The position numbers and the translations under genes were made by a program. Below, in pieces: positions 3,001-21,954 of a stretch of 25,221 nucleotides of DNA. How positions within the stretch are numbered: position 1 is the stretch's first letter; each line of letters opens with the position of its first letter. The stretch is taken from IMG/VR virus record IMGVR_UViG_3300025127_000250, positions 1-25,221 of that record; one strand, given 5' to 3'. A model generated the notes under the pieces. That model did no database searches, was not told where the DNA came from, and saw only the letters and a list, made by a program, of their open reading frames with translations. This DNA comes from a virus.

Positions 3001-6000
3001 AGAATCACCAGCATTAGTTCCAGCATATAAGTTCTCTTGAGCGTCTGGTTGCCATGCAGTTGCACCACCAACACAAGTTAAGTTCGAACCATCTCCATAA
3101 AATTTGTTTGCATAAACATTATTCCACTGATGTGTAGAAGATTCACCCAAATCATAGCAGTTATGGCATACTGGACTCACATTTGAATCAAAATATGATT
3201 TTCTACCAGGATTATCAATTCCATCTTGAACCATGAATGTTGATATTCCAAGTGAATTACTACCATCCTTTACATGTAATGCAAGAAAACTTGATCCTGT
3301 ATTATAAATTCCGAATTTACCATCAGATCCACCTACACTAAAAATATCACCATCATGTGTTCCTGATGTTCCTTTTAAATGGAAATTTCCACATATTGCT
3401 AAATCTTTTGTGCTCGCACTAAATGTGATTCCAAGTCCTGTGTATAATGGTTGATAAGTTCTACTATCAGATGGACTGTTAACATCCACAAATGATGGGT
3501 AGTAAACCTTTGTTGGATCTATGGATGGATCAGTTGCACCAACAGCGATTCTATTTGCGTCTTGAGTTAGTGCTTGAGTAGATAAATTGACCCATGCTCC
3601 ATCTTTGTAAATTCTTACTGAGGGTGTTGATGTATCATACCAAATATCACCCTCACATACAGTGTAACCACCTGTTGTTGGATCAACACCTTGAACATAT
3701 TTTCTACCATACGCATTGCTAGTTGTTCCAATACCAATTGTTGTTGCTCCACCTACTGTTTCACTAACAGTGATTGGATTTAAGGGAGTGTCATCTACAT
3801 TACAATAATTTTGCTGTTTGACATCTACAGTTGTCAAACTACCAGCACCAGCATCTTCCCATGAAGGGGCAGCGCTTGTACCATTAGAGGTTAATACCTG
3901 ATTTGGTGCTCCGTAGTTTTCACCACCTAATCCTATTTGACCTAAAGATCCGATGCGAAGTCTTTCACTTCTATTAGCACTATTACTAGGACTAGTTTCA
4001 AAAGTAATATCAGTCGGTATTTGATTTCCAGATACAGTTCCATTTACTACTACTTTTATCTGTGCTGTATTATTTTCTAAATCTGTTCCATCAGCAGGAC
4101 AAAATGCAATTTTTCCTAAAGTATCACCATTTGCCACAGTGTTGACTGATCCAGTAGATGTACCTCTTGTCTTTCCAAACAAAATTATTGAAGATTGAGT
4201 GGTATCCTGATTATTAACTAATGCAAATGAAGAAGTATTTACGGAATCTCCTTCTATGTGTAACTTTCCTCTTTGATTACTAAAACCTACATTTCTTGCT
4301 GTGTCTGTACCAATACCAACTGTTCCATTAAGTGGGTCATAAGTAATTAACTCAGTTGAGTATATCAATTCACTCTCTCTAGCATTATATGGATTATTGC
4401 TATCAACAAATGTAAAATGATGTATAGGAACGAGAGATTGAACTGTGATAGTTCCATACATGTTATTGTGACTAGAACACTGATAATAATATACACCTGC
4501 TGTATTTGGAGTCCATGATACTGTGTTATTACCAGTAGAACCTTGACCACTGGCAGCTGGTGTGCTTACTTGATTATTGACTCCAGTTCCTTGTACAGTC
4601 TTGATATAAAACGGATGAATGGCATTGACATTAGATAAATTAAAATTAATCGTATCTCCAACTTTTAATGTAACAGGTTGATTATTACCATTTACTGTTC
4701 CGTTTCTATCAGATCCACTTAACGTATAGTATGAAGAAACAGGTGCAGTGACTGTAATATTATAAGTTGCATTTGTGACTCCTGTATTAATACTTCCAAC
4801 ACCAACTTTATTTGCATTTTCAATTGTCAAGTCACCAGCATTAACCCAATTTATCTCACTACCAGTTGACTCTAATAATTGACCATTAGTACCTAACTCA
4901 CCATCTTTATCTTGCAATCCACCACTGATTTTTACACCATCATCAGTAGTTTGAAATCTTAATGTATTATTATATCTCAATTCAACACGGTCACCACTGT
5001 AGAACCTTGCCATGTCTTCATCTTCAGTTGCATTTCTTATTGCAACTTGATTGGATAATATAACAAGATCTCCTGTTCCAGTATCTTGGATGTAACTATG
5101 TTGATCTGCCGTAGCTGGATCAAAAGGAGATGTACCATGAAATATCCTTAAATCTTCACCATCACCTAAATGTATTCCTGCTTGATCTCTAAAATATGCT
5201 GTTGAACCAAATCCTACAGTTGCACTTGTTCCTATGAGAATATCCTCAACAAATGTAGATACACCTGAGACTTTTAATTGATTGAGTGTACTAATTCCTG
5301 TAACACGTAAATTAGTGAGGGTGCTGATTCCTGGTGATACGTTTAATTGAATTAGATCTCCAATACCACTTATTACATTAGTCGCAGTTTTTACAGTTAG
5401 ACCAACTGGTGATACCCAAGATGGTGCTTCAGTTTCATTATACTGAAGTAATTGTCCCGTGCTTGTTCCATTATCAATAAATGATGTTTGAGAAATGTCT
5501 GACTGATATGGTATTTTGTATGCTTCTCCACCACTTAAACTTTGTGCTGCACCAGTTAATGTTCCGTAAAATTCATTTGCAGTAACAATACCGACAGCTA
5601 ACTTAGCAGTATTTAAGGAGGTAACTGGATTATCAGGACCTGTAGTTCCAATACCAACTTTACCGTCAGATGTGATACGAACTTTTTCTGTGCCACTGGT
5701 AGTAAAAGTTAATGCACCATCAGTTCCCATAATATGATTTACGTTATCTGAGGCATCACGAAGAACCATCTCAAAATCACCATTAGGTCTCTGGAAGAAT
5801 CCTGCCCCATCTGATACATCAGTGTCTATTCTAAATCTCCAAGCACCTTCATTTGGTGGTAAATAACTTGGTGCAGTAGCATAAATTTGTAAAGGTGCAC
5901 TGGGAAGTGTGGCTCCAATCCCGACACTTCCTACTCCCGTGACATTAAAACCTTGTGTTCCCATACCCACCTGAAATATATTAACAGGTTGTGTAGTTCC

Positions 6001-7489: not shown

Positions 7490-8836
7490 TCATGAAGCAG
7501 TTGAATTTTCTAGAATACTACAAATAAATTCCATTTGCAGAGGACCGACTAATCCACCAGAGGTAGATACACCTGCATATACTGAAAATGTTTTTGATGT
7601 TCCAACAGCATCAACAATATCTACACCTAATTCATCACTTGCACTTCCCCAATTAGATGGGTCAGTCGCACGAGGATATTTGTGTTCTGTTAGATAATTA
7701 TCTTGAGAACATTTCCAGGTTGTTTTTTCTGTTCCAAGACCAACCCTTGATCTTGCTCTTTTAATTCCATTTGGCACTGCTGATTGATAAGTATGATGAT
7801 TTGAATTATTTGCAGGACCTACATTTATTTCAAACGTGTCATCATCAACTCTTGTGATTGGAACAAATCTACTACTTATAGGATCAGTGGATCTTGGATA
7901 TGATTTAGTTCCTCCTGACTCATAATCACAAGAAAATGAAATTGAATTATCTTCAAAACAAACTAGATCACCTGTCTGCCATCCACCTGAAGGAGCAACA
8001 GTTGTATTTGTTGTCATAATTCCTGAAATTGGATCATATCCTGTTCCAGTTGTTGCAGTGTAAGTTTCAGGAGCAGCTAATCCATGTACCATTGGAGATG
8101 TAAAACTTACAATTCCTGAGATTGGATCATATTCTGCAGAATTAAATGTTACAGAGTATCCTACATTTGTATTATTATTAAAAGTTGCAACTGCAGCACC
8201 AGATTGTGCTCGAACAAATTGATGAAACGCTGGTCGATATACATGTGGTAGTGCGTCTACAAGTCCTGTATTTGTAACAAAAGTCTTAGATGTTCCAACA
8301 TCTCCGATTAAATTTGTAATTGTAAATGCTGCCTGTGGTTCTGGAAAAATAGATGTAGTCAGACCATAAGTTCCTGAACAAGTGAAGGCAATTCCTGCCA
8401 TCGTTATCTGTTCACCAATATCTAACCCATGTGGATCTAATGTTGTGACTGTTGTTATACCTGAAGAACCATCATATTTTACATCAAATACTGTTCCGAT
8501 TCCTGTTTGAATACCTGTTAAAACAATTGAATCTGACACTACTGATGTTCTTTCTAAAACTAATCTACCATCAACCAAGATAAGTGCATCATTTGGTGGT
8601 ACTTCTGCATCTTTTATAATTCGATTATTTCTTATATTACCTGCTGTTCTTGTTGCAACACTCGTTCTACGATGTGTGAATGTAACTGTAGGGTATGATT
8701 GCCCAATTCCAACATTCGATACTTGTGCATAGAGCAAAATTGCGGATGTTCCTGTCGGTGCAGTATAAATTGTCTGTTCTCCTGGTGCTACAGGAACAGC
8801 TATTGTCAAAAATTTATTTAACGGTGCGACTGCCAT
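7490..8836 (-). CDS. Virion structural protein, function unknown
   Basis: A 448-residue beta-rich protein of Ser, Thr, Gly and Val, with no signal peptide or membrane segment. It starts MAVAPLNKFLTIAVPVAPGE and contains two copies of a YDPISGI motif about 30 residues apart, each leading into a short beta segment. Paired KSYPRSTDP / HKYPRATDP motifs lie in the C-terminal half. I do not recognise a named family. Its position between two fibre genes, with one base on either side, argues for a virion or fibre-connecting protein. The ATG at 8836 is two bases from the stop of the upstream gene, consistent with translational coupling. Function beyond a structural role is not supported. Confidence 0.7.
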   Translation of the reverse strand: MAVAPLNKFLTIAVPVAPGEQTIYTAPTGTSAILLYAQVSNVGIGQSYPTVTFTHRRTSVATRTAGNIRNNRIIKDAEVPPNDALILVDGRLVLERTSVVSDSIVLTGIQTGIGTVFDVKYDGSSGITTVTTLDPHGLDIGEQITMAGIAFTCSGTYGLTTSIFPEPQAAFTITNLIGDVGTSKTFVTNTGLVDALPHVYRPAFHQFVRAQSGAAVATFNNNTNVGYSVTFNSAEYDPISGIVSFTSPMVHGLAAPETYTATTGTGYDPISGIMTTNTTVAPSGGWQTGDLVCFEDNSISFSCDYESGGTKSYPRSTDPISSRFVPITRVDDDTFEINVGPANNSNHHTYQSAVPNGIKRARSRVGLGTEKTTWKCSQDNYLTEHKYPRATDPSNWGSASDELGVDIVDAVGTSKTFSVYAGVSTSGGLVGPLQMEFICSILENSTAS

Positions 8837-8837
8837 A

Positions 8838-11800
8838 TTATCTCAATGCTAGTATTAATGGTGTAACTTCTGCTTGAATTGCCCGACTGAAATCTCTACC
8901 TCTAATTGTTGAAGTTGTTTGATCAATTTGAATTCCTTCACCAATGTCAAAATTACCTTTCTGGTCAGTAGAAGTAAATGGTATTTGTGCTCCATCTGAA
9001 GCAACAATTTCATTCGCTTTTATGGGTATTGCACCCTGCAGGGGTGTCGATCTATTTATGTCTGTGCCCGTGCCAACATATTCAAAGGAGTGAGAACTTG
9101 TTAGTATTCGACTAATTCTTTGTAATGAGAATTGATCACCAGGAAATAATTCATATGGTATAAATTCATTGAATGTAATAGTACTCAAACCAACTTTTTC
9201 TTGTCCAACTCCAACTACATCAGTTGCAGATTCAACAGTAAAGAATATTGGTGCCATGACAGCAGTTGCTATTCCAGTATTACCTTCAACAGAGACAACG
9301 ATATTTTGTGTTGGAAGATAGTTTCTTCCCTGTGCAATTACATCGATTGATGTTAGTGTACCAGTCGCATCAACTGTTGCGGTTGCTTCTGCAATAATTG
9401 ACTGTGGTCCTTTTGGTTGTTGAGTTCCATCAGCATCTAGAATTAAAACACTTGGAGGATTAATTGCACTAAAACCCGTAAGATCTGCTCCTTCTATAAA
9501 TTTAACTGATTCTAATTGTTTTAGGGGTTCTTGAAGAATACCACTCTCTGCAACATCAGGGTAATTATCTAAATCTATTTTAAAGAATAATGCCTGACCA
9601 TCAAATGCTCTTCTTGGATTATCTTCATCATCAAGAACATTAGCACAAACAACAGTATCTTGTTCTCCAGCATCTGTGCTGGTAATAAAATCTCCTGCAG
9701 GATTCGTATTACTTACGATACCTGTGAACTGTGTTGATCCTAATCCCACTGCAACTAAACCAAAATTACCAAAAGATGAGTTTGAGTTAGTTAAATCACA
9801 TTGTGCCCCTGTATCTGCATAGATTCCAATATCACAGTTAATTGTAAAGATAGAAACTAACTGTGCATATGCATCATTTGTAAGAGAAACTCCAATTCCG
9901 TTCTCGTTATATTGTGTAAATGAATCACAAACCATTGATTTGAGATCTCCACCAATTGTTGATGCTGTTGCATTATCACCATCAATCTTCATTCCAATAC
10001 TACTTGTCATGAAGTTAGTACAGTTTCTAACATATGGTGATCTCCATCTTCCACTTGGTCCTTCAGTCGCAGGACCAGGTTCTGTGTATCCACTAACCGC
10101 ACTGTCAGCACCAGCAGGAGGTGGAAATGCCACACAAGCAGAATTTGTATGATCCACTCCAACATTTGTACCACCAAAGTTTAGATTTTCAACTAGACAT
10201 CCTCTTCTTACATGAAAAATATCTTTGTTTGGATTTTGTGCTTGTATGATAACTAATCGAATATCTTCTCCTGTAACTGAAACATCAGTTCTTAAACCGA
10301 TTGGATTATTTTCAATATAAATTCCTGGTCTTACTTTAATTGTATCAGTTTCCTCTGCAATTGCAGCTGCTCCTCCAATAGTTGCCTTTGCATCACCTTC
10401 TAATAATCCACTATTCGTATCACATCCATTTTTTGATACCCATATTGTTCTTTTTGTTTGAACACCAGATGGTCTCCAAGATACACCCGTGCCAACTGAT
10501 GCTAATCGATAATCAGTTTTACAAACACCTACAACATCTGAAAATCCATTGTCATTATTAATATCTAATAATGATGACTCTAATTCTAAAGTGCCTTCTA
10601 GTTTGGTATTTTGACCAACATTCAAATTTTCCTCAATACCAACACCACCTGATTCTACTACAAGAGCACCAGTATCTTTACTAGTTGATCCTTCATTAGC
10701 ACCTATTCTTACATTACCACCGACATTTACATTTTCCTCTACTCCAACACCACCTGATTCTACTACAAGAGCACCAGTATCTTTATCGGTTGATGGAGTA
10801 TTTGCTTCTATTTTTGTTTGACCACCAACAAAAAGTTTTTTGCCAATGGCAGCACCACCAACCACCTGTAAAGCTGCTACAGCATCAGAAGCAGTTGCTT
10901 CAGTATCTTTTTCTATCTTAGTATCACCACCTACAAATAATTTTTTGACAATTCCAACACCACCATCAATTTGAACTGAACTTGATGAATTAGAACTTGT
11001 CGCATCTGCGTCATTATTAAATGTTGATTTACCATCAACATCAAGTGTGCTGTTAAGTGTGGTTGCAAGATCAACATCAAGTGTGCTGTTAAGTGTGGTT
11101 GCAAGATCAACATCAAGTGTGCTATTAAGAGTTGTAGCACCATCAACATCAAGAGTGCTATTTAATGTAGTATCCCCATCTACATCAAGAGTCTGATTAA
11201 GAGTTGTATCACCATCTACATTTAAAGTTCCGTTTACATCTAAATCAAATTGTGGATTGTCTTGATTGATACCAACCTGGGTCATTCTATAGATAGATGC
11301 ATTTGCACCACTTCCATTATATCCCCATAAATCATTTGTAAATATGGTTGATAGACCAGAACCTTCTGGAGTAGAAGTATCAGCAGCAGTTGGTCTTAGT
11401 GTATCAGTTCCCAGTCCAAGACTATTTCTTTGAACAAAATTTATGGTTGTAAATGATTGTGCAGCACCAACAGTATTATGATTTTCATCGGTTGGAAGAA
11501 ATTGTCCTTCATCTTGTATAAAAATACCTTCATCAAAACCTGGTGTGAGTGGCACCCATTTGATTCCAAGTTCATCTCTTCTTAACCAATAGTTGTTTGC
11601 ACCAGGAGAACCTGAAGAGTCATAAATGTTTCTTGATATTGCAATACTACCATCAATACCAAGTCTTAAGGTTCCTTCAGCAGCATCATCAACATTTAAT
11701 ATTCCAGATGCTAGTGGTATTGCATCTGGTTCTGTTGTTCCAATACCAACTCTGAATGTGTCAGTGCCAACACCACTAATTATATTAAAAGATGAATTAT

Positions 11801-12335
11801 TACCTGCGTGTTCAAAGATTGTTCTTGGTTGTGTGGTTCCAATACCAACTCTTCCAGAATGAGTTACATTTAATGATGTTATATCAGAACCTACTTGGAA
11901 TAATACATTTGGTGAAGTTGTTCCAACACCAACTCTACATGGATCAGAGTGAATAGTTAAGCAATCATCACCAACTTGAAATAGTGCATCTGGTTCTGTT
12001 GTACCAATACCAACACGACCAGCATATTCTCCTGTACTGATTCCTGAAAATACACTCCCATCTCCATTAGGACCAATATCTACTCTAGCTAAAAAATCAA
12101 CATTTTGACGAAATGTGGTAACCCCAGAGATATCTAATTCACCTGATATATTAAGTCGATTTAAATTAGTTTGATTATTTACTGTTAGATTTTCTACAGT
12201 TAAGTCATCAAAGTTTATATCTACATCAAGACTCTCACTTATAATCTTTCCAGCAACCTCTATATCCTTTAGAAAAAGAACCTTTTCGTTAAATTGTGCT
12301 TCGTTACCTGTAACAGTTCTTTCAAAAGGATTCAT
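8838..12335 (-). CDS. Fibre-like virion protein with tandem repeats and beta-helix domain
   Basis: An 1165-residue protein. The N-terminus (MNPFERTVTGNEAQFNEKVL) leads into a segment like a coiled or beta-stranded stalk. Four VG(I/V)GTT(E/S/Q)P modules lie in about the first 220 residues, the same family as in the 2478-aa gene. Residues about 373-432 hold 12-residue repeats of the LDVDGDTTLNST type, and about 515-570 hold a 35-residue repeat with KDTGALVVESGGVG. Residues about 627-880 look like a right-handed beta-helix of pectin-lyase type, starting RTIWVSKNGCDTNSG with PGIYIENNP. Such helices often form fibre shafts or depolymerases, but I cannot identify catalytic residues. A GRNYLPTQ element near the C-terminus resembles the GSDYFYYPP units of the gp5-like protein. 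Start ATG is two bases after the needle gene's stop. Confidence 0.75.
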   Translation of the reverse strand: MNPFERTVTGNEAQFNEKVLFLKDIEVAGKIISESLDVDINFDDLTVENLTVNNQTNLNRLNISGELDISGVTTFRQNVDFLARVDIGPNGDGSVFSGISTGEYAGRVGIGTTEPDALFQVGDDCLTIHSDPCRVGVGTTSPNVLFQVGSDITSLNVTHSGRVGIGTTQPRTIFEHAGNNSSFNIISGVGTDTFRVGIGTTEPDAIPLASGILNVDDAAEGTLRLGIDGSIAISRNIYDSSGSPGANNYWLRRDELGIKWVPLTPGFDEGIFIQDEGQFLPTDENHNTVGAAQSFTTINFVQRNSLGLGTDTLRPTAADTSTPEGSGLSTIFTNDLWGYNGSGANASIYRMTQVGINQDNPQFDLDVNGTLNVDGDTTLNQTLDVDGDTTLNSTLDVDGATTLNSTLDVDLATTLNSTLDVDLATTLNSTLDVDGKSTFNNDADATSSNSSSSVQIDGGVGIVKKLFVGGDTKIEKDTEATASDAVAALQVVGGAAIGKKLFVGGQTKIEANTPSTDKDTGALVVESGGVGVEENVNVGGNVRIGANEGSTSKDTGALVVESGGVGIEENLNVGQNTKLEGTLELESSLLDINNDNGFSDVVGVCKTDYRLASVGTGVSWRPSGVQTKRTIWVSKNGCDTNSGLLEGDAKATIGGAAAIAEETDTIKVRPGIYIENNPIGLRTDVSVTGEDIRLVIIQAQNPNKDIFHVRRGCLVENLNFGGTNVGVDHTNSACVAFPPPAGADSAVSGYTEPGPATEGPSGRWRSPYVRNCTNFMTSSIGMKIDGDNATASTIGGDLKSMVCDSFTQYNENGIGVSLTNDAYAQLVSIFTINCDIGIYADTGAQCDLTNSNSSFGNFGLVAVGLGSTQFTGIVSNTNPAGDFITSTDAGEQDTVVCANVLDDEDNPRRAFDGQALFFKIDLDNYPDVAESGILQEPLKQLESVKFIEGADLTGFSAINPPSVLILDADGTQQPKGPQSIIAEATATVDATGTLTSIDVIAQGRNYLPTQNIVVSVEGNTGIATAVMAPIFFTVESATDVVGVGQEKVGLSTITFNEFIPYELFPGDQFSLQRISRILTSSHSFEYVGTGTDINRSTPLQGAIPIKANEIVASDGAQIPFTSTDQKGNFDIGEGIQIDQTTSTIRGRDFSRAIQAEVTPLILALR
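10639..10785. repeat. Pair of identical 42-bp direct repeats
   Basis: A 42-base sequence starting ccaacaccacctgattctac occurs at 10639-10680 and identically at 10744-10785, 105 bases (35 codons) apart. It encodes the repeated KDTGALVVESGGVG segment of the 1165-aa fibre. Identity at the DNA level suggests recent duplication or gene conversion. Confidence 0.85.
11041..11220. repeat. Five tandem 36-bp repeats in the fibre gene
   Basis: Units at 11041-11076, 11077-11112, 11113-11148, 11149-11184 and 11185-11220. The first two are identical and the others diverge progressively. More degenerate units flank both ends (11005-11040, and from 11221). Each encodes a 12-residue LDVDxxTTLNST unit. The array keeps frame, so gain or loss of units would change fibre length without breaking the gene. 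Confidence 0.9.
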
Positions 12336-12337
12336 TT

Positions 12338-12940
12338 TTATTGTTCCCGATTGTTGATATTTGGTTCATCACCAATTCCAGGCACCACTCCTTTTTGTAA
12401 GAATTTATCACCAGTTGGTGGACTTTGGAGATAATCAGAACCAACTTGAGTTGGTTTATATATCCTTTCAATCCATGATCCTATACTATGAACCAAATTT
12501 CCAAGAAGTGCACTTGCATCTGCCTTTATTGCCTTTAATAATATTCTTTGTCCAGCAGTTATTGTTACGTTTCTGCCAGCTTTAATGTTAATATCTTCAT
12601 CTGCCTGAATTGAAACATTATTACCTCTAATTTTTATCTGACCATTTTCTAAGACTGTGATTGTAATATTACCTTTCGCAGATTCTATTTTTATTGTGTC
12701 ATCTGTCTGTGTATTCTTTGATCCTGCAACAACTTCTATACCTCTTTCATTATGAAGTCGATATAAACCAGATTCACTTAATGCACAAAACTGTCTATCT
12801 TCATTATCAGTTACACCATACATGATGTACGCATTGTAACCATCATCTCCCATTTGAGGATTATTGACATCGATTCTAAATTTAGAACCTCGACTATCAA
12901 TATCTCTTGCTTCCCAGTTTTGATTAGGTCTTTCAGCCAT
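12338..12940 (-). CDS. Small beta-helical needle/spike protein (gp5 C-terminal-like)
   Basis: A 200-residue protein whose middle (about 85-145) is a run of short beta repeats, for example TIKIESAKGNITITVLENG then IKAGRNVTITAGQRILLKA. This resembles the triple-stranded beta-helix of T4 gp5 and VgrG spikes. The N-terminal part (NWEARDIDSRGSKFRIDVNN) may cap or dock it. Its ATG overlaps the stop of the gp5-like gene by one base (TAATG), so the two are translationally coupled. In T4 the OB domain, lysozyme and needle are one polypeptide; here the needle seems to be a separate gene. A membrane-piercing role is inferred from family and neighbourhood. Confidence 0.65.
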   Translation of the reverse strand: MAERPNQNWEARDIDSRGSKFRIDVNNPQMGDDGYNAYIMYGVTDNEDRQFCALSESGLYRLHNERGIEVVAGSKNTQTDDTIKIESAKGNITITVLENGQIKIRGNNVSIQADEDINIKAGRNVTITAGQRILLKAIKADASALLGNLVHSIGSWIERIYKPTQVGSDYLQSPPTGDKFLQKGVVPGIGDEPNINNREQ

Positions 12941-15282
12941 TAGTAACCTCCTCCATATCCTCCACCTCCAGAGGGTGGACTACTTGGTGGACTTGGTGGA
13001 CTTGGTGGACTTGGTGGTGTTGATGATGAAGTATCAGGCATTTGAGTTGGTGTTGTGGTAGGAGTAACTGTTGGTTGACTTTGTACTGCTGGTGAACTTG
13101 TTGTAATACCAGTATTAATTGTAGAACTTGTCTGTAAACTTTCGTCTAAAGTATCATATATTATTTCATGTTCGTAATTTACATGAACTGCACCAACCAT
13201 TTTAACTCCTTTGGTTGGATGTACATGGAAAGGTCCATAGTATGGTTTTCCATTTACATATCCGATTATGTTTGTATCTGGACCGACACAATCAATAATC
13301 TGAATTATTTCTCCCTGTGGTGTGGTTGGCAGTCTACCAATTATTGGTTTGATGAATGCACCCGACCCAGTGGAAGAAGTCACACTAATCTTAGGTAGAT
13401 CAGTTATTTCAACACTATTTATTGGGATTGCAGATATTATTTCTCCGTTGTTAATTGTTAAACTATATTCAGTATTTCCATCAGTTGCAACAGCATCCAC
13501 ATAGTCACTTCCTCCACTAACTATTTGTGTTGCAATTACTCCCATTGGAATTTGATCAGAATTAATTGCATCATCATTGTTACTTACAACAGGATAATTT
13601 TCACCCTCAGAAATCATAGTAACTCCAGTGATTTGTCCGTACGTTGCTGATAATGGATTCCAATCTATTATTGCTCTTCCAACAGCACCATATCCATTTG
13701 AACAAGGATCATCAAAAGAAACAGCAGGTGGATAATAGAAGTAATCAGATCCTGGATCTTCAATCTCAACACCAATTATACTTGCTGTTCTTGAAAAATC
13801 GGCAGTTACTTCTGACAATCCCTCTGTATTATCTACAAATTTACCGAGTATTGCTCTACCAAATCCTCCACTTCCACTTCCACCAAAGAAACTCACAGTT
13901 GGAGGACCACAGAAACTTGGTGTTGAACAATCTGGTCTGGGGAATGATGAAGTATTTTCATTCATATTTTTGGTCACATTATCATATGTTTCTTGAAAAT
14001 TAAATTGTTTTGTCAAACCTTTTCCAATAGTCCATTTTTTGACTTGACCAACACAATTTGAATCTGATTGATTACAATCAAGAAGATTACCAACAGATTT
14101 AAATGTATCTGAAGACGAACCTAAAATATCTTTTACAACAGTTCCAGCAGCAACTATTTTGTCAAGTGCTGCCAAAGGTGCGTCTAGTCCCTCTGAAATT
14201 TTATTATTAATAGTGCTTAAAAGAGATCCAGCAAATTGTTCTGTAATACATGCTCCTGTATTTACAACTTCTGTAAGTGCTTCCTCTATCAAACCTCGAA
14301 CCGTGTCAGTCAATCCATTCGCAACTTTAGATCCCAAACAGTCTAATTGATCTTGAAGTCCTTTAATTGGATTTATTTGCCCTTTCTGTGCATCAATTCC
14401 TTTTATTGTGGCAAGAGAATTAGCAATTGATGCACTCTTTCCTTGTGCAATTTGAAGAGCAAACTCTTTAGCATATTCTGTTTGATACAGTCTTTCAAGT
14501 CCTCCTTGTAAATTAGGAATTAAATTTGTATACAAAGATTCCATTGATGCGGTTATTGGAGCATTCGATAATTTTTTTATTTTTTCAGTCGCACTCGCCA
14601 CGTTCTGTAGTAAATTAGTTCCATCACCAACTGTCGCAAATAAATTATCCAAAGTTCCAGATACACTTCCCAGAAAATTATCCGCACAAGCATCTGCTGG
14701 TATTTCAACTAAACCAAAAGTGCTTGATATCGGAATTTCTTTTAATTTATCTTTTGGTTTACTTTGATTGATTTTATCAATTGTTTTTTTATCAGTTGTT
14801 CTTGGAGATTTTTGTGCTTCATCATCTGCTTCATTTGCTTCTGATGCTGCAACAGTATTGTTTGGAACTGGAATATTACCAGTATATCCTGTAAAAGGAA
14901 CAAAAGACTCTGATGGTGCATTTGAAGGAACTTGTTTTGTTCTACCAAAAGCACCCATTATAACTGGAATTTGACCATTGTCTCCATCTAAGAAGAATCC
15001 CATCACAACGTCGCCAGGTCTTATCTTTACACTTGAAGCGAAGTTTGCACCTCCAGTTCCTGAGGTTGGTGGTAATAAAACACTTGCCCATGGTAGTTCT
15101 GCATCAGGAAGATCACCTTTGTTATATGGGTGATATCCTAAAATTCTAACCTTATATCTATTTCCCCATCCTTTTTTATTAGCTTGATCGAACCATGATG
15201 TTACGGGTGGAATTTGACCAATCCACCACCTAAAACCATCTCTTCCTATAAAATTACTTTTTAACAGTGACTCTTCTATCAT
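12940..15282 (-). CDS. 5: gp5-like baseplate hub / spike-base protein
   Basis: A 780-residue protein with an N-terminal OB-fold domain like T4 gp5 (about residues 10-130: WWIGQIPPVTSWFD, NRYKVRILGYHPYNKGDLPD, LPWASVLLPPTSGTGGA, GFFLDGDNGQIPVIMGAFGR). Residues about 190-430 are mainly helical. Residues about 470-670 contain Gly/Pro-rich beta units such as DPGSDYFYYPPAVSF. Near 690 lies GPFHVHPTKGVKMVGAVH, a motif I associate with marine T4-like gp5 proteins. The C-terminus is a low-complexity PPSPPSPPSPPS then GGGGYGGGY tail. I see no T4 lysozyme-like segment. It lies next to the gp27-like gene (3-base gap), its expected partner in the hub. Confidence is high for the OB domain and low for the rest. 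Confidence 0.75.
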   Translation of the reverse strand: MIEESLLKSNFIGRDGFRWWIGQIPPVTSWFDQANKKGWGNRYKVRILGYHPYNKGDLPDAELPWASVLLPPTSGTGGANFASSVKIRPGDVVMGFFLDGDNGQIPVIMGAFGRTKQVPSNAPSESFVPFTGYTGNIPVPNNTVAASEANEADDEAQKSPRTTDKKTIDKINQSKPKDKLKEIPISSTFGLVEIPADACADNFLGSVSGTLDNLFATVGDGTNLLQNVASATEKIKKLSNAPITASMESLYTNLIPNLQGGLERLYQTEYAKEFALQIAQGKSASIANSLATIKGIDAQKGQINPIKGLQDQLDCLGSKVANGLTDTVRGLIEEALTEVVNTGACITEQFAGSLLSTINNKISEGLDAPLAALDKIVAAGTVVKDILGSSSDTFKSVGNLLDCNQSDSNCVGQVKKWTIGKGLTKQFNFQETYDNVTKNMNENTSSFPRPDCSTPSFCGPPTVSFFGGSGSGGFGRAILGKFVDNTEGLSEVTADFSRTASIIGVEIEDPGSDYFYYPPAVSFDDPCSNGYGAVGRAIIDWNPLSATYGQITGVTMISEGENYPVVSNNDDAINSDQIPMGVIATQIVSGGSDYVDAVATDGNTEYSLTINNGEIISAIPINSVEITDLPKISVTSSTGSGAFIKPIIGRLPTTPQGEIIQIIDCVGPDTNIIGYVNGKPYYGPFHVHPTKGVKMVGAVHVNYEHEIIYDTLDESLQTSSTINTGITTSSPAVQSQPTVTPTTTPTQMPDTSSSTPPSPPSPPSPPSSPPSGGGGYGGGY
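12982..13017. repeat. Four perfect 9-bp tandem repeats
   Basis: The unit acttggtgg is repeated four times without a mismatch. It encodes the PPS repeats of the gp5-like protein's C-terminal tail. The array is in frame, so slippage would change tail length only. Confidence 0.9.
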
Positions 15283-15285
15283 TTT

Positions 15286-16632
15286 TTAACCGCCGTAAAA
15301 TCCAAATGAATCTCTAACTATTTTCATAGAAGTATATGAACCGTCTGGATCAAAATGATGACATAACTCCTTTATTATATATTTACCACTTATATCAGGA
15401 TCCAATTCACTTGAATCTTCTCTTGATATTTTTGGAAATTCACATGTAATTACATTACCAGCTCTCAAATCAGTGTTGCAAGGAATCAACATACTGATTG
15501 TTTGTGTAAGTAAAACATTATATCTCATCGTAGATTGTGCTTGATACTTACTAGCATCAGCATTGACATTTCTTGATATACCACGATCAAGTGTTCCAAC
15601 ATCTAAGATACCAGTGAATATTCGAGTTGGAAGATCATCTAAAGTTCTTTCTGCTTCATCTGATATTTTAGGAAGTTCAATCTCCCTTGCTCCAAGTTTT
15701 TTAACATCAGATTTTTGAAATTTAAACTTACCTTGCTCTGGTGTAGTAAATCTAAAATTTAATGGGTTAAAGAAAAGTTGTTGACTTGAATATGTTCCTA
15801 ATCTTAATTTTTTCAATAAATCTTGATTTTTATCAACAGAGTATTTTATGATTCTAAAATCATTATTTCGATCAACAGAACTCTTATTTACTTCTGTATA
15901 AACATATGTTGCTACAGATTCTTGCTCAATCATGTCATCAATTGATCTAAATTGAAAACCATCTTGAGTCTGATAAAATAAGAATCCTGCAGTTTTATCT
16001 CCAGATTTTGATGGTACTGATTTAGATGCTAACCATACAAGAACGGAAAATGGTTTTTTAAGATTGCCAATAAAATTATACTTGTTACTTGTAGGATCAA
16101 CTTTTATACGAAGTGGATCAATTTTTAAGGTTTCTTGTAGAATTTTCTTTACTGATGTGGATATCGAACCTGTATACTTTCGAATTACTCTAGCAGTTTC
16201 ATTTGTAATTGCCTCTCTTGAAACAAAATTAAGTAGAAAACTTTCTCTTTGAGTTTCCGCAATAACATCAGTAATACTTGAAACATAAAGATATTTCATC
16301 GGATCACTTGAAAAATTAATTCCCTTCTTGTCCTCACCATTATATGATTTACCCCTATCAAGTATTTTTAAGATAAGTCTTTCACCACCTCTTAAGGGAA
16401 GACCACCATATATTGATTGTTTTGCACCATCAACTTTACTTGAATCTGTTTTATCTTTTGGTGACATTGAATCACCAGTGTTAATTACCCTAATCTTAGC
16501 AGTAATTGTAGGTGAGAATATATCTTCATAGTAATCAACAGAAACTGCACCTAATCTAAGATCAGCAGTTCTCTCCTGATCGTTTGACTCAAGTGTTATT
16601 ATTTCATATTGTGCTGGATTTGTTGCTGACAT
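15286..16632 (-). CDS. 27: gp27-like baseplate hub protein
   Basis: A 448-residue protein (T4 gp27 is about 390). It begins with YEIITLESNDQERTADLRLG, then DYYEDIFSPTITAKIRV, and has SITDVIAETQRESFLLNFVS and KKPFSVLVWLASKSVPSK. These fit the tube-like hub domains of the gp27 / VgrG-N / GpD family. It should form the trimeric hub connecting the tube to the gp5 spike. The neighbouring gp5-like gene three bases downstream supports this. The ATG overlaps the stop of the preceding gene by one base (TAATG). Identification is from overall pattern and context, not a catalytic motif. Confidence 0.65.
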   Translation of the reverse strand: MSATNPAQYEIITLESNDQERTADLRLGAVSVDYYEDIFSPTITAKIRVINTGDSMSPKDKTDSSKVDGAKQSIYGGLPLRGGERLILKILDRGKSYNGEDKKGINFSSDPMKYLYVSSITDVIAETQRESFLLNFVSREAITNETARVIRKYTGSISTSVKKILQETLKIDPLRIKVDPTSNKYNFIGNLKKPFSVLVWLASKSVPSKSGDKTAGFLFYQTQDGFQFRSIDDMIEQESVATYVYTEVNKSSVDRNNDFRIIKYSVDKNQDLLKKLRLGTYSSQQLFFNPLNFRFTTPEQGKFKFQKSDVKKLGAREIELPKISDEAERTLDDLPTRIFTGILDVGTLDRGISRNVNADASKYQAQSTMRYNVLLTQTISMLIPCNTDLRAGNVITCEFPKISREDSSELDPDISGKYIIKELCHHFDPDGSYTSMKIVRDSFGFYGG

Positions 16633-17996
16633 TATGTGTACGCTAAATTTGATAAAAATTGTTGTTCTATCATAGTATTTACTGAGTCATTCTTTAACAT
16701 CAAAATCTTAGTGCTTGCACTAGGTGTTGATGATGCCATAGATTGATCCTGATCAATAACCACTATTTTTTGTTTCTTTTTATTAGGAGTTAAATTTGAT
16801 ACTGATTGGTTATCAGGTGTAACAGATTTAATAGATTCAGATTTCATAACTGAACTTTTCATCTTAGTTTGATATGCCTCTTTTGCTGCTTTAATTTCTC
16901 TAAAGTCAGTTGTTTTAGATCCATCTTCTTTTATGATAGTAATTTTACCACTACCAGATGATCCTGACAACTCAGGGACATCTTTTTCATCCTTTAATTT
17001 CATCGGTGTTTTTGGTGCCGATCCACTCTTAATGTCAATAACTTTTTCTTTCTTCTCTGTTGGTATTTTTTGTTCTGTTGGGGTAGAAACTCCTTTTCCT
17101 TCAGTTCCAACTTTCGCAATTTCTTTTTTAGCTTTGTCTATCGCAACATCAAAAGTTTCTTTTCCTTTTGAAATTTCAGATCCAACTTTATCTAAAGTTC
17201 CTTTAATGCCTTTTACATCAGTTGGTTCCTCTGGTTTTTGTGGTTTACCTTCTTCCAACTTACCATCTTTTGCAATTTTCTTTGGATCCTCCTGTTCTTT
17301 CTTTTTAAGTAATCCAAGACCACCCTTAATTTTCTTTAGTATATTTCCAAATGCATTCTTGATGCCATCAAATTTTTCTCTAATGAAATCACCAATTTTT
17401 GAAATATCAAATGATTTTATTGTGTTAAATGCATTTGAGATGGCACCTCCTATTTTTTTGAAGAAATCACCAATACCAGTGAAGAAATCTTTTATTGACT
17501 GACCTATATTTTGAATCGATTTAATAACTTTTTTAATAAAATTAACAAGTTTTAATCCTGTATTTACTAACCACCCAATCAAAATAGTTGAAAGAAAATC
17601 AATTATTTTACCTAAAATTCCTCCTGGTTTTTTAAGTTTCATTTCTGGATTTGGTTTTTCATTTGAGTCTTTGTTTCCCTCCAACAATTTTTCTCTTTCT
17701 TTTCTTCTTCTCTCCTCTGCCTCCTTCGCACGTCTTTTTTTATCTTTCATAAACTTATCTTTATCAATTTTTTTACTTTTCGACGTATTTGTCTTCACTT
17801 TTTTCATAGTCACTCTTGATTTTTTAACTATTGCTCCTCCTTTCTTAGCAATTGCACCACCAGATCTCATACCCACTCTGGCAATAGATCCACCCATTTT
17901 CAAACTACTTTTTATGGCGACTTTTGCCCCTACTTTGGCACCAACTAATGCCCCCTTTACTAATCCTCCTGCGATAGCTGCTAATGGTGCTGGCAT
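16632..17996 (-). CDS. Tape-measure-like, basic amphipathic tail protein
   Basis: A 454-residue, very lysine-rich protein. The N-terminus (LAAIAGGLVKGALVGAKVGA) is small-residue amphipathic. Residues about 50-110 are highly charged and likely coiled coil (RRAKEAEERRRKEREK). Residues about 124-235 alternate hydrophobic and basic helices (GGILGKIIDFLSTILIGWLV, then FIKKVIKSIQNIG and DFFKKIGGAI). The C-terminal half is low-complexity Lys/Glu/Pro/Ser. This resembles tape-measure or tail-lumen proteins such as T4 gp29. Its hydrophobic core resembles that of the next upstream gene, suggesting paralogy. It lies one base after the upstream stop. Which of the two is the true gp29 equivalent is unclear. 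Confidence 0.5.
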   Translation of the reverse strand: MPAPLAAIAGGLVKGALVGAKVGAKVAIKSSLKMGGSIARVGMRSGGAIAKKGGAIVKKSRVTMKKVKTNTSKSKKIDKDKFMKDKKRRAKEAEERRRKEREKLLEGNKDSNEKPNPEMKLKKPGGILGKIIDFLSTILIGWLVNTGLKLVNFIKKVIKSIQNIGQSIKDFFTGIGDFFKKIGGAISNAFNTIKSFDISKIGDFIREKFDGIKNAFGNILKKIKGGLGLLKKKEQEDPKKIAKDGKLEEGKPQKPEEPTDVKGIKGTLDKVGSEISKGKETFDVAIDKAKKEIAKVGTEGKGVSTPTEQKIPTEKKEKVIDIKSGSAPKTPMKLKDEKDVPELSGSSGSGKITIIKEDGSKTTDFREIKAAKEAYQTKMKSSVMKSESIKSVTPDNQSVSNLTPNKKKQKIVVIDQDQSMASSTPSASTKILMLKNDSVNTMIEQQFLSNLAYT

Positions 17997-17997
17997 T

Positions 17998-19488
17998 CTA
18001 GGTCACCGTATTGTAATTCATTTGTGAATATAATGTAAGAAAATTACTAGGATTTGAAGAAGCAATAGATGGTGCTTCAGTTTGATTTGAGTCTGCTCCT
18101 GGTGCTTTTCCACCATCTTGTTGTGCAGAAGATTTTTTATAAACTATTTCTGGTTTAGAATCTGCAACTGGGTCTAAATTTGTTTGAGAAGTAACTTTAG
18201 TTATTTTAGTTTCAGATTTTGATGGTGATTGTACGCTTGAATCACTAACTTGAGATACAGGTTCTGGTGATGAACTACCCCCACCACCACTTATTTTTGC
18301 CTCATACTTTGCTCTAATATTTTCTTTTGTTTCTTCCCATTTTACCCTTGCATCTGCCCAATGTTGTTTTCTTTCAACACCACTCTTTGGAGATGTTTCT
18401 CTAACTTGTTTCCACCACTTATCATGTGTTTCATTTATTTCTTTATTCATCGCATCTCGAATACCATCTAATCTATCTCTTTCTTTTTTAAATTCTATGT
18501 ACGCTGCTTTTTGTTCTTCAGTTCCATGTTCCATCACGTCAACATTTTTACCATCTATTTCAATTTTTCCACCAGAGGTAACACCCATATTTTTTAAATT
18601 TTTCAATCTTTCATTATTTTTTTTATGTGCATCTCTAAATTCTTTACCTCCTGCCATTGCTGTTCTTATCGCATTACCACCCATAACAGCAGCACCAATA
18701 CCAGCTATTACAGCTAATGTAATTAATCCTGGTGGTGATAATAAAAATCCTATGATCGCAGTTCCAACAGTTGCAAGCATACTGGCAATCGGAGTAATTA
18801 ATGCAGGTATGGCACCAAGTCCACCACTCAATGCTAACATGATACCTCCAGCTATGCCAAGTGTTGAAACGATTGATATCGCAAAACCAGCAAATGCCTT
18901 ATAATCTCCATCCATAAATGCTTTTATTGCTTTCAAACCTTTATCAAATAGAAATCCAGCAAAGATGAGCATAAAAGCATCTTTTAATTTCTGTAAGATG
19001 CCCCCCATTGCTTTACCAGCAGATTTCATTGGAGATAATAACTTATTTTTTAAAGAATCTGGAGTTTTTTCTAATAAATTTTCCTCTTCACTTGCTTTAT
19101 CTTTTTCGTCTGCTATTTTAGCACTTCTTTTTTGTTTATCCTCTTGTTCTTGTTTCTTCTTTTTCTCTTCAAGTAAGGAGTCTGATATTTTCTTTACGGT
19201 GTCTTGAAGAGCAGATAATGCTTTTTGTATATTTTCAACAGTAGAAGATAAATTAGAATCACCACCAGTTTTTACTAGTGCTCCTCCACTCTCAGGGATC
19301 ATTGAAGATTGTGGTTGAATTCTAGTGGCATCATTTTTTCTATTACCAAAAACTCTATCACTACTTACACGAGTTCTCTTGAAGTAAGCGATTCTCTCTG
19401 CATTAGTTTTGAAATATTTTCCAGTACTAGGATCCACTCCAGTGATTGCTGGACTTAGTGTTGGTTTTAGAGAGATGTTAGATTCCAC
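17998..19488 (-). CDS. Tape-measure-like protein with hydrophobic core (gp29-like candidate)
   Basis: A 496-residue protein starting with GTG (19488-19486); no upstream ATG was seen that fits better. It overlaps the preceding small gene by 11 bases. Residues about 75-135 are probably coiled coil with a long Lys/Glu stretch. Residues about 160-277 are strongly hydrophobic (GGILQKLKDAFMLIFAGFLF, FAISIVSTLGIAGGIMLALS, several Gly/Ala-rich helices), as in tape-measure proteins that can insert in the host membrane. Residues about 277-385 are charged helices, then a Ser/Pro-rich tail. Position right after the gp26/gp51-like pair matches tape-measure genes in long-tailed phages. At under 500 residues it would be short for a lone tape measure, so it may act with the downstream gene. 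Confidence 0.55.
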   Translation of the reverse strand: MESNISLKPTLSPAITGVDPSTGKYFKTNAERIAYFKRTRVSSDRVFGNRKNDATRIQPQSSMIPESGGALVKTGGDSNLSSTVENIQKALSALQDTVKKISDSLLEEKKKKQEQEDKQKRSAKIADEKDKASEEENLLEKTPDSLKNKLLSPMKSAGKAMGGILQKLKDAFMLIFAGFLFDKGLKAIKAFMDGDYKAFAGFAISIVSTLGIAGGIMLALSGGLGAIPALITPIASMLATVGTAIIGFLLSPPGLITLAVIAGIGAAVMGGNAIRTAMAGGKEFRDAHKKNNERLKNLKNMGVTSGGKIEIDGKNVDVMEHGTEEQKAAYIEFKKERDRLDGIRDAMNKEINETHDKWWKQVRETSPKSGVERKQHWADARVKWEETKENIRAKYEAKISGGGGSSSPEPVSQVSDSSVQSPSKSETKITKVTSQTNLDPVADSKPEIVYKKSSAQQDGGKAPGADSNQTEAPSIASSNPSNFLTLYSQMNYNTVT

Positions 19489-19657
19489 TTTGTTGTTGCT
19501 GTTTTAAATTTTCCTCTTCAATATATTGTTCTAGAAGAGCAACATATACATCCTTTTCCCAAGGAATCATATTTTCAATTTCAGTTAATGAGTATTTATG
19601 ATGTTGCATCAAGGCAAAATTTATCTTGAAGTATGACGCTAAATCAATATGCGCCAT
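19478..19657 (-). CDS. Small gp51-position ORF; predicted C-terminal part of a gp26 frameshift fusion
   Basis: A 59-residue reading frame: MAHIDLASYFKINFALMQHH followed by SLTEIENMIPWEKDVYVALL, then an acidic EEEN and Gln-rich end. The P-W-E-(R/K)-D-x-Y-x-x-x-L pattern resembles the downstream parts of tail-assembly chaperones and small gp51-position proteins. It lies two bases after the gp26 stop and is open in the -1 frame back through the slippery site. Its ATG sits within the 5' arm of a predicted 9-bp stem, so separate initiation may be poor. It is probably made mainly as a gp26 fusion. It overlaps the GTG start of the tape-measure-like gene. Confidence 0.7.
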   Translation of the reverse strand: MAHIDLASYFKINFALMQHHKYSLTEIENMIPWEKDVYVALLEQYIEEENLKQQQQSGI

Positions 19658-19687
19658 ACCTACTCGAAAAAACTTGACAGACCCTCC
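19631..19687 (-). promoter_or_regulatory. Predicted -1 programmed ribosomal frameshift signal
   Basis: Reading 5'-3' on the minus strand, a Shine-Dalgarno-like GGAGGG lies at 19687-19682. After 9 bases comes the slippery heptamer T TTT TTC (19672-19666), in the gp26 frame as X XXY YYZ over codons Phe237-Phe238. After a 6-base spacer comes a hairpin: arm 19659-19651 (GTATGGCGC), 11-base loop, arm 19639-19631 (GCGTCATAC), nine pairs with one G-U. The order and spacing match the dnaX-type bacterial -1 site. The gp26 stop TAG (19662-19660) lies in the spacer. Confidence 0.75.
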
Positions 19688-20379
19688 AATACTACTTCGG
19701 ATTCAACCTTTGTTTCTGGATTTTTAATCTTAAGTTTATGAGATAATTTAGGCATTGTTTCAAAGAAAGTTTCAATTTCTTTAAATTGTTTTGAACTTAA
19801 CTGTTCAATAAAATCATTAAGTTCTTTCTTTGTACAATCAGATGCATTCCAAGATTCTTCTTCATTAAATACTTGATCGATACATGAAACAATCATGTCA
19901 AATGATTGAGAAACGTTAATACCTTCATCAACATTGAAATTATTTGAAATAAATTCAGATAAGGATGGATATTTCATTCTTAATGTTAGATTTTCATCTA
20001 ACTTAATATCTTTTGTATGTTTTGGATTTTTATGAACTTTAATTTCATCAAGAGCAATGGTAACTGGAACCTGAGTCTTGTCATCGTCAGGACAGGTGAT
20101 TATAACATCAACATTCTCTCCAACGGATTTTCCACGAATATTTAAGAACAGATATTCTATATCAAATGTTGATAATTTTTCAACTTTAGTTCCCCTAGTT
20201 AGAATGCAATTTCCAATCACAGTTTTAATTGCATTGGTGATTTGCTTTTGATCTTCTGATTCCATTGCAATAATCAGAAGTTTTTCTTCTTTTACTAAAA
20301 ATGGTCGATACTTAATTTTTCGATCACTCGATGGTAATACCATCTCATAAGTTGGGGTTACAATTTTTGGTAATGGCAT
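19660..20379 (-). CDS. 26: gp26-like baseplate hub / tail assembly protein
   Basis: A 239-residue protein whose start, MPLPKIVTPTYEMVLPSSDR followed by IKYRPFLVKEEKLLIIAME, matches the T4 gp26 family (Pfam T4 baseplate family by recall). gp26 is needed for hub formation. The C-terminal half is acidic and helical. The ATG at 20379 follows a late-promoter box by 25 bases and has no clear Shine-Dalgarno. The gene ends ...SSFFE-stop within a slippery site; -1 slippage at F237-F238 would extend it with R-V-G and the 59-residue downstream frame to 300 residues. That organisation is the one known from lambda G/GT chaperones upstream of the tape measure. Confidence 0.8.
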   Translation of the reverse strand: MPLPKIVTPTYEMVLPSSDRKIKYRPFLVKEEKLLIIAMESEDQKQITNAIKTVIGNCILTRGTKVEKLSTFDIEYLFLNIRGKSVGENVDVIITCPDDDKTQVPVTIALDEIKVHKNPKHTKDIKLDENLTLRMKYPSLSEFISNNFNVDEGINVSQSFDMIVSCIDQVFNEEESWNASDCTKKELNDFIEQLSSKQFKEIETFFETMPKLSHKLKIKNPETKVESEVVLEGLSSFFE

Positions 20380-20404
20380 AATGTTTACAGCACTTCATTA
20401 TTTT

Positions 20405-20412
20405 TATTTATA
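20405..20412 (-). promoter_or_regulatory. T4-type late promoter box upstream of gp26
   Basis: TATAAATA on the minus strand, an exact match to the T4 late promoter -10 element recognised by gp55-programmed polymerase. It lies in the 39-base gap between the tail-tube-family gene and gp26, 25 bases before the ATG. It would start transcripts about 12 bases before the gp26 start codon and drive the long late operon. Confidence 0.7.
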
Positions 20413-20418
20413 GTGGTT

Positions 20419-21084
20419 TTAGAAGAGTCTAAAATTCTCGTTATCACCTCTTTGTACATTCAAACTATTGTCTTTTCCTGAAATATATCTCTCATAGTTA
20501 AATGTGCAACTTACCTGTAAAGTATCTGAACTTCCATACTGTACAGGTGTTGAAGATAAACTAATTGGAAACATTCCTATAAATGTATATTCAAGTTCCT
20601 GATCATAATCACGTTCAAATTTTACAATTTTAACTCTATCACATTTATATCCACTAGCACCTCTTGGATACCTCATACGATAAAAGTATGCAGGGGATGA
20701 TTTTGAGAAGAATGAATTTTTACTTATTTCTGAACCACTTGAGATATATTCAATCCAGTGTTCTAAAAATTTAATCATTTTATAATCTGAATCAACATAA
20801 AAAGACAACACCAACTCTGTAAAAATTCTTGTATGTGCAAATTTTTCCTGAACTCCAGTAAAATTACCAAATATATCACTTGTTCCCAAAGTACTGCCTG
20901 GCAGTGATGCAGAGTTACAAAGTAATCCAGCATTTTCTATTATAAATCTTCGATCAACACCTTTTCTTGCAAGATAATTAAATAAATTTCTTGACAAACC
21001 ATCAAAAAATACTTGATAGTGCGAAGTTTGTGCTGTTTTTGCAAGTTTGTTTCTAAACTCACCTATTTTCTTAGGACGAACCAT
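20419..21084 (-). CDS. 54: Tail-tube-family protein, probable gp54-like tube initiator
   Basis: A 221-residue protein with a tail-tube fold pattern of the T4 gp19/gp54 family: N-terminal charged helix, NAGLLCNSASLPGSTLGTSD (the 'aaLPG' strand typical of tube proteins), ELVLSFYVDSDYKMIKFLEHW and IEYIS, and a final strand VSCTFNYERY. gp54 polymerises on the baseplate to start the tube and is a paralogue of gp19. The window also carries gp48, its partner in T4, which favours gp54 over gp19, though T4 gp54 is longer. The ATG at 21084 is preceded by TATTTAG with no Shine-Dalgarno. Start of the minus-strand operon in this window. Confidence 0.6.
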   Translation of the reverse strand: MVRPKKIGEFRNKLAKTAQTSHYQVFFDGLSRNLFNYLARKGVDRRFIIENAGLLCNSASLPGSTLGTSDIFGNFTGVQEKFAHTRIFTELVLSFYVDSDYKMIKFLEHWIEYISSGSEISKNSFFSKSSPAYFYRMRYPRGASGYKCDRVKIVKFERDYDQELEYTFIGMFPISLSSTPVQYGSSDTLQVSCTFNYERYISGKDNSLNVQRGDNENFRLF

Positions 21085-21121
21085 CTAAATACTCTATATC
21101 TCTATATAATAAACTATTTAG
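21085..21121. promoter_or_regulatory. Divergent intergenic region with mirrored start-site motif
   Basis: A 37-base gap between divergent genes. It begins with CTAAATA (21085-21091) and ends with TATTTAG (21115-21121), an inverted repeat, so each ATG is preceded by the same TATTTAG. Neither gene has a Shine-Dalgarno. AT-rich elements (CTATATAATAAA) could be late-promoter variants in either direction, but no exact TATAAATA is present. Presumed bidirectional late promoter region, by inference. Confidence 0.5.
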
Positions 21122-21562
21122 ATGTCTTATAAGGGAAAATACTATCCATCCTTTCCTAAGAAGTACAAAGGTGATCCGACAAATATAATTTATAGATCAC
21201 TTTGGGAAAGAAAATTCATGGTCTGGTGTGATAAAAATGAAAACATATTGAAGTGGGCAAGTGAAGAAATCGCAATTCCATATCGATCTCCAATAGATGG
21301 TAGACTACACAGATATTTTCCAGATTTTTATGTTAAAGTCAGAGAAAACAGTGGAAAAATTGTTGAAAAATTGATTGAAGTTAAACCTTTAAAACAAACC
21401 ACACCACCTACAAAACCAAAAAGAAAAACAAAAGGATATATCTATGAGGTTCGTGAATATGCAAAAAATATGGCAAAATGGGAGGCAGGAACTGAATTTT
21501 GTAAAGATAGATCATGGAAATTTCAAGTATTAACAGAAAAAGAACTAGGAATTAAGAAATGA
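21122..21562 (+). CDS. 4: gp4-like head completion protein, PD-(D/E)xK nuclease fold
   Basis: A 146-residue protein like T4 gp4 (also called gp50), which acts at the portal in finishing DNA-filled heads. Motifs: YRSLWERKFMVWCD with Glu29, then PDFYVKV with Asp68, and IEVKP with Glu86 and Lys88. This E...PD...ExK set is a PD-(D/E)xK / TnsA-type nuclease site, so an active endonuclease is plausible. It overlaps the next gene by four bases (ATGA). First gene of a short plus-strand late operon with gp48 and gp53. Name confidence is good; nuclease activity is inferred from motif. Confidence 0.8.
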   Translation: MSYKGKYYPSFPKKYKGDPTNIIYRSLWERKFMVWCDKNENILKWASEEIAIPYRSPIDGRLHRYFPDFYVKVRENSGKIVEKLIEVKPLKQTTPPTKPKRKTKGYIYEVREYAKNMAKWEAGTEFCKDRSWKFQVLTEKELGIKK

Positions 21563-21939: not shown

Positions 21940-21954
21940 AAAATAGGGTCGATA

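Follow-up and report, generated by a model that had tools for sequence, protein, structure and literature searches.

A likely copper-binding cupredoxin module in a T4-like cyanophage tail fibre belongs to a widespread family of marine tail-associated domains

Results

Genomic setting of the fibre gene

The stretch of DNA analysed here (25 kb over its full length, hereafter the window) is a fragment of a T4-like cyanophage of the Kyanoviridae, near S-SKS1/P-SSM2, and its baseplate region is nearest to those of Synechococcus phage S-SKS1, the AG-345 single-cell marine viruses, S-SRM01, and P-SSM2. The feature of interest lies within a mosaic protein of 2478 amino acids, the N-terminus of which shares approximately 42% identity with a Kyanoviridae homologue in AG-345-L05 and approximately 40% with a tail-fibre-like protein of P-SSM2. 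On the basis of PHROG matches along the chain and of its tail and baseplate neighbours (Table 1), the protein was assigned to the tail-fibre family; its presence in the virion is inferred. The N-terminal domain of the T4 gp9/gp10 family (PF07880) was not found in this protein by Pfam search, and the window fibre itself is not a gp9.

Two further features of the locus were recorded. The second large fibre contains tandem repeats of the DVDGDTTLNSTL type. Within the 2478-residue fibre, 27 of the 36 Cys residues fall in a single stretch (aa 1441–1800, window 2089–3168, minus strand) that spans NIAIG-type beta-roll repeats and the next module. This stretch returned no match in the Pfam search, and it could conceivably be disulfide- or metal-stacked within a trimer.

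Table 1. Features of the window and of related loci. Positions are those of the window unless a locus number (L) is given.
Feature	Position	Strand	Basis
Giant mosaic tail-fibre protein, 2478 aa	52..7488	-	ORF; segments match PHROG tail fibre, tail and tail spike families
Fibre module absent from homologous AG-345-L05 fibre, aa 885-1190 (cupredoxin and following fibre module)	3919..4836	-	blastp
Cupredoxin domain, aa 900-1022	4423..4791	-	PF00127 score; AF2; Foldseek/VIA matches
His958, predicted first copper ligand, motif H-P-F	4615..4617	-	Conservation of 98.5% with ligand-masked profile (68 non-redundant viral domains)
Cys1004, predicted thiolate ligand, first Cys of the protein	4477..4479	-	Translation; ligand-masked conservation
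His1007, predicted second His ligand	4468..4470	-	Translation; ligand-masked conservation
Met1010, predicted axial ligand (Gln in a small subgroup)	4459..4461	-	Translation; ligand-masked conservation
Neighbourhood of the fibre gene	7490..24602	.	Pfam and PHROG matches
Second large tail fibre	8838-12335	-	Pfam/PHROG
Hub/lysozyme	12940-15282		Pfam/PHROG
Tail protein	15286-16632		Pfam/PHROG
T4_baseplate, PF12322	19660-20379		Pfam/PHROG
Tail tube	20419-21084		Pfam/PHROG
Tail tube cap gp48	21955-23016		Pfam/PHROG
gp53	23016-23711		Pfam/PHROG
gp32	23712-24602		Pfam/PHROG
Subtilase-cupredoxin fusions, cyanophage tail regions	L036 5967-11489; L041 4285-6333		
Members of the axial-Gln subgroup	L013 frame-2 ORF aa 1545-1636; L218 frame-0 ORF aa 440-538		

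A cupredoxin domain within the fibre

When the domain was searched by itself against Pfam, it matched PF00127 with 22.8 bits (E 1.3e-4), above the gathering score of 21.2; the entire 2478-residue protein scored 18.3 bits, below that threshold. An AlphaFold2 model of the domain, computed from 21 window and viral sequences, contained nine strands and had a mean pLDDT of 94.5. Searching the PDB with this model in Foldseek gave rusticyanin, a CuA domain with an amicyanin loop, AcoP, CuNIR, and amicyanin as the best matches (E values down to 8.8e-6), and VIA-align superposed it across about 100 residues on rusticyanin, CuA, amicyanin, and Cu-nitrite reductase domains with Z-scores of 9–11 (maximum 11.2). 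A family profile of 21 members was also compared with the PDB at a cut-off of E ≤ 1e-3. This search resulted in 42 distinct sequences, all of them copper cupredoxins or Cu-nitrite reductases, and no T4 gp9 structure was matched at that cut-off. The closest viral models in BFVD were phage proteins, two of which are annotated as gp9 connectors (S-H34 and S-RIM14). Matches in BFVD also included small 'beta-sandwich proteins' from giant viruses of the Pithovirus/Marseillevirus type (E ~1e-5).

Amicyanin was the top NCBIfam family for the domain, yet the TIGR02657 score of 24.4 bits is below the equivalog cut-off of 110.2, and the plastocyanin equivalog TIGR02656 was not met either (18.6 bits against a cut-off of 87.85). 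By its TIGR02657 score the domain is thus not an amicyanin, although it is inferred to work like one. We conclude that aa 900–1022 form a true cupredoxin with a full type-1 ligand set, as established from the sequence; the Greek-key beta-sandwich is predicted by the model, and no metal has been measured.

The initial annotation, made from the sequence alone, had proposed a cupredoxin at 4423–4746. Structure prediction and HMM search bore out the fold, with the domain alone passing PF00127. The interval held only in part, as it covers aa 915–1021 of a slightly longer domain. The four ligands that it named and their C-x2-H-x2-M spacing, as in amicyanin, were correct to the residue.

Conservation of the copper ligands

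His958, Cys1004, His1007, and Met1010 are arranged at amicyanin spacing, and along the C-x2-H-x2-M loop the domain aligns without a gap to 5u7n. The pattern C..H..M occurs only once across the six frames of the window, and aa 1–1003 of the fibre contain no Cys. A search for homologues can be biased towards the residues under study; to avoid this, the four ligand columns were masked in the search profile. Among 77 non-redundant domains (pairwise identity below 80%), the ligand set read HCHM in 74 and HCHQ in two, and the remaining one read YSAM, having lost the His, Cys, and second His. The 68 viral domains comprised 65 HCHM, two HCHQ, and the YSAM copy, and all nine bacterial domains were HCHM. 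Ligand columns in the viral set were 97–98.5% conserved, compared with 50% for the median column, and together with two Tyr they show the highest conservation in the family despite the masking. Loci had been retrieved with DNA patterns that overlap in part with the ligand motifs, and the count was therefore repeated on 35 domains lacking any such pattern word, with a similar outcome (32 HCHM, two HCHQ, and one YSAM; ligand columns 94–97% conserved, median column 47%). The C-x2-H-x2-[MQ] spacing was kept in 250 of 252 rows.

The first His is directly followed by Pro in 75 of the 77 domains. Asn or Ser is usual at this position in small electron-transfer cupredoxins, and the properties of the site may therefore differ from theirs. 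His-Pro is, however, usual at the type-1 His of multicopper oxidases and so is no argument against copper. Gln occurs as an axial ligand in stellacyanin. A second, distinct subgroup of phage cupredoxins (HPLMFS...YYWCHYHTGQG), with a stellacyanin-like axial Gln, was observed in another large protein.

Two copies without a site were encountered. One is the YSAM domain, a tandem repeat in L063; the other, outside the 77-domain set, lies in the S-B05 fibre (L223, 3446–5788) and has Phe, Ala, Val, and Met at the ligand positions. Both lost His, Cys, and His jointly, as would be expected if the ligands were one functional unit, and both demonstrate that the cupredoxin fold can outlast its site. Free loss of the ligands among homologues, which the initial annotation had named as grounds for refutation, was therefore not seen, dead copies being rare; its argument that intact ligands speak against a merely Ig-like decoration is supported by this conservation.

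The cupredoxin segment as a mobile module

Comparison by blastp showed that residues 734–884 and 1191–1288 of the window fibre match adjacent or overlapping segments (688–826 and 806–904) of the AG-345-L05 fibre (L227). Since the flanks adjoin there, aa 885–1190 were either inserted in the window fibre or deleted in AG-345-L05. Among phage records, the domain is closest, at approximately 71% identity, to one in a subtilase-type protein of MED4-213 that is not an orthologue of the fibre, and in a phylogenetic tree the window copy was placed together with subtilase-borne copies in a supported clade (99/97). The tree is based on few columns, and its carrier labels derive from a crude motif. The cupredoxin segment behaves as a mobile module.

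Distribution in gp9 and other proteins

The family is best represented by the domain at the C-terminus of gp9, the connector between baseplate and long tail fibre. Cyanophage gp9 consists of the PF07880 gp9/10 N-terminal domain followed by a C-terminal cupredoxin, and it falls in PHROG 677, 'baseplate wedge tail fiber protein connector'; PF07880 was likewise detected in the relative P0003 of S-MbCM100. C..H..M was found in all 45 distinct full-length gp9 proteins in the fetched loci, and in 44 of the 45 the ligand is the sole Cys of the protein, which excludes an intrachain disulfide as the reason for its retention. The fold of the gp9 C-terminus rests on the profile match and the BFVD matches, as the AF2 model of full-length gp9 had a pLDDT of only 42. 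Distant gp9 or fibre homologues in S-SSM7, S-SZBM1, P-TIM68, Bellamy, and Sf-CH8 retain all four ligands. Mass spectrometry of purified S-SM1 virions identified 41 proteins (PMC3037559). S-SM1 encodes a gp9 of the cupredoxin-ending type, which does not imply that this protein was among them.

Querying phage records by tblastn with the window domain matched 180 records, and the gp9 version matched 337, of which 329 bear Synechococcus, Prochlorococcus, or cyanophage names; the other eight are labelled 'Marine' (five), Pelagibacter (two), and Actinomycetia (one). Pattern scans of IMG/VR with three queries returned 34, 423, and 403 relatives, without removal of the overlap between queries. As an approximate denominator, 457 records bearing one of the three cyanophage names given above match the T4-like baseplate segment of the window. 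Roughly seven in ten T4-like cyanophage records thus carry a domain near the gp9 form, and, within the limits of that denominator, the domain terminates gp9 in most T4-like cyanophages. The initial annotation had guessed that other structural proteins of marine phages contain domains of this kind; this held on a large scale, and the family, with the gp9 C-terminus, is larger than was then seen.

Other carriers are diverse. Subtilase fusions occur in MED4-213, where the protease is flanked by two cupredoxins, and in ACG-2014j. A P-SSM2 tail spike combines two copies of the domain with an S74 chaperone, and podoviral carriers include P-SCSP2 and a Pelagibacter podovirus fibre. Metagenome-assembled genomes of marine Flavobacteriaceae and of Flammeovirgaceae, Myxococcales, and Lysobacterales (L124–L140) encode the same domain at the protein end, and several of these bacterial proteins have lipoprotein-like or secretory N-termini, as judged by eye.

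Discussion

Comparison with known systems

The window domain shares with amicyanin, plastocyanin, and rusticyanin (PF00127) the Greek-key beta-sandwich and the His...Cys-x2-His-x2-Met ligands in amicyanin spacing. Unlike these proteins, it sits in a phage tail fibre without a signal peptide or a known redox partner, scores far under the equivalog cut-offs, and has Pro in place of Asn/Ser after the first His. Cyanophage gp9 resembles T4 gp9 in its N-terminal domain and in adjoining the baseplate wedge genes, and differs in ending with a copper-type cupredoxin. Metal sites within fibre proteins have a parallel in the iron sites formed by HxH motifs in T4 gp37 and in the fibres of marine phages (the Ferrojan horse, PMC11705849). 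Those sites are trimeric His octahedra for Fe, whereas the site predicted here is mononuclear, of the copper type, formed by a single chain, and includes Cys and Met; no HxH motif was found in the 2478-residue fibre. Blue-copper folds are also known in cyanophage genomes from the auxiliary metabolic gene for PetE plastocyanin (PMC3037559), but PetE is produced during infection as a free electron carrier, whereas the tail cupredoxin is a domain of tail structural proteins. The open-access literature that we searched contains no description of a cupredoxin, blue copper, or type 1 copper site in phage tails; most subscription papers lay outside the search, and automated database labels may exist. 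The fold and site are known, and their location in a phage tail is thus probably unreported, as far as that literature goes.

Proposed role

The explanation that we favour is that the long tail fibre of this T4-like cyanophage probably carries a module with a complete type-1 copper site, drawn from a widespread marine tail-associated family. Its sequence, predicted fold, ligand conservation, module mobility, and distribution are shown; metal binding and role are inferred. That a blue-copper fold retains a lone Cys along with a Met and a pair of His is likely best explained by copper binding, although no metal has been measured. Cyanophage particles may, by inference and without experiment, carry copper. 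The further suggestion of the initial annotation, that redox-active or structural copper in the virion serves fibre stability, adhesion, or host-surface chemistry, remains inference only.

The most economical inference is that the domain acts as a surface or adhesion module stabilised by copper, since it is found on tail proteins unrelated to one another as well as on surface proteins of bacteria. A structural or adhesive function appears likelier than electron transfer, which would require a partner; none has been identified so far. The protein would be made in the host cytosol with its Cys reduced and unpaired, copper would be acquired either in that compartment or from seawater and lysate, and the metal would clamp the His/Cys/His loops of the exposed domain, leaving a metal-stabilised surface or adhesion module on fibres and baseplate. 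The cytosol, where tails are assembled, is almost devoid of free copper, so the virion might instead contain the apo form or another metal.

Alternative explanations

If only the fold mattered, the domain would serve in adhesion or decoration, and the four residues would be vestigial or would hold a different metal, for instance zinc. Ig-like decoration domains are common on phage fibres, one carrier is labelled 'Immunoglobulin domain-containing' in BFVD, and the two ligand-dead copies persist in nature. We consider this reading unlikely, as the ligand columns and two Tyr remain the most conserved in the family under masking and the only Cys in gp9 is in every case the ligand; vestigial residues would decay. 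A bolder reading, likewise improbable, is a copper-dependent tail in which a mononuclear type-1 copper centre on gp9 and other tail proteins would control fibre attachment, deployment, or adsorption through copper binding or redox state.

Still weaker is a redox device that would exchange electrons with a partner on the host surface or in the periplasm, or sense redox conditions, and so trigger or tune adsorption or tail contraction. In its favour are the complete type-1 ligand set, the fact that the fold finds its best PDB matches in electron carriers, and the strong bias to phages of photosynthetic hosts (the 329 of 337 gp9-domain records noted above). Against it, neither a partner nor a conserved docking patch was identified, Pro follows the His in all but two of the 77 domains, and related domains are known from settings without a photosynthetic partner, namely exported bacterial proteins and the fibre of a Pelagibacter phage. 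We hold it very unlikely.

Also very doubtful is copper as bait or cargo, whereby host copper-uptake systems would recognise loaded tails (a copper Ferrojan horse) or the virion would scavenge or ligate copper. The HxH iron sites and their Trojan-horse hypothesis (PMC11705849) offer a precedent, and a site on fibre and baseplate proteins implies several copies per virion. However, there is no evidence for a receptor, the site lies within the cupredoxin loops instead of being displayed, and the domain is borne by proteins at differing tail positions.

Three candidates were rejected: an accidental ORF or chance motif (a single C..H..M in six frames, and deep conservation), a captured PetE plastocyanin (equivalog score far under cut-off, and a different carrier), and an intrachain disulfide role for the Cys (sole in gp9, with none before residue 1004 in the window fibre). 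The viral NirK of PMC8115048 is a real NirK unrelated to the tail cupredoxin.

Implications

For the favoured copper-site reading, the copper claim can be tested immediately with small recombinant domains and existing phage stocks, and the dead copies of L063 and S-B05 are natural, ready-made controls for metal experiments. PF00127 matches in viral contigs should not necessarily be taken as auxiliary electron-transport genes. The domain is not peculiar to one contig, as it forms the end of gp9 in most T4-like cyanophages, where the single Cys is kept as the ligand, and these phages are among the most abundant viruses of the ocean. The hypothesis of iron in phage fibres offers a parallel, in which the metal site is much less well defined. 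Each virion would hold several copper ions if the sites were occupied; marine viruses that are abundant would then act as copper ligands, and the copper status of the host could affect adsorption.
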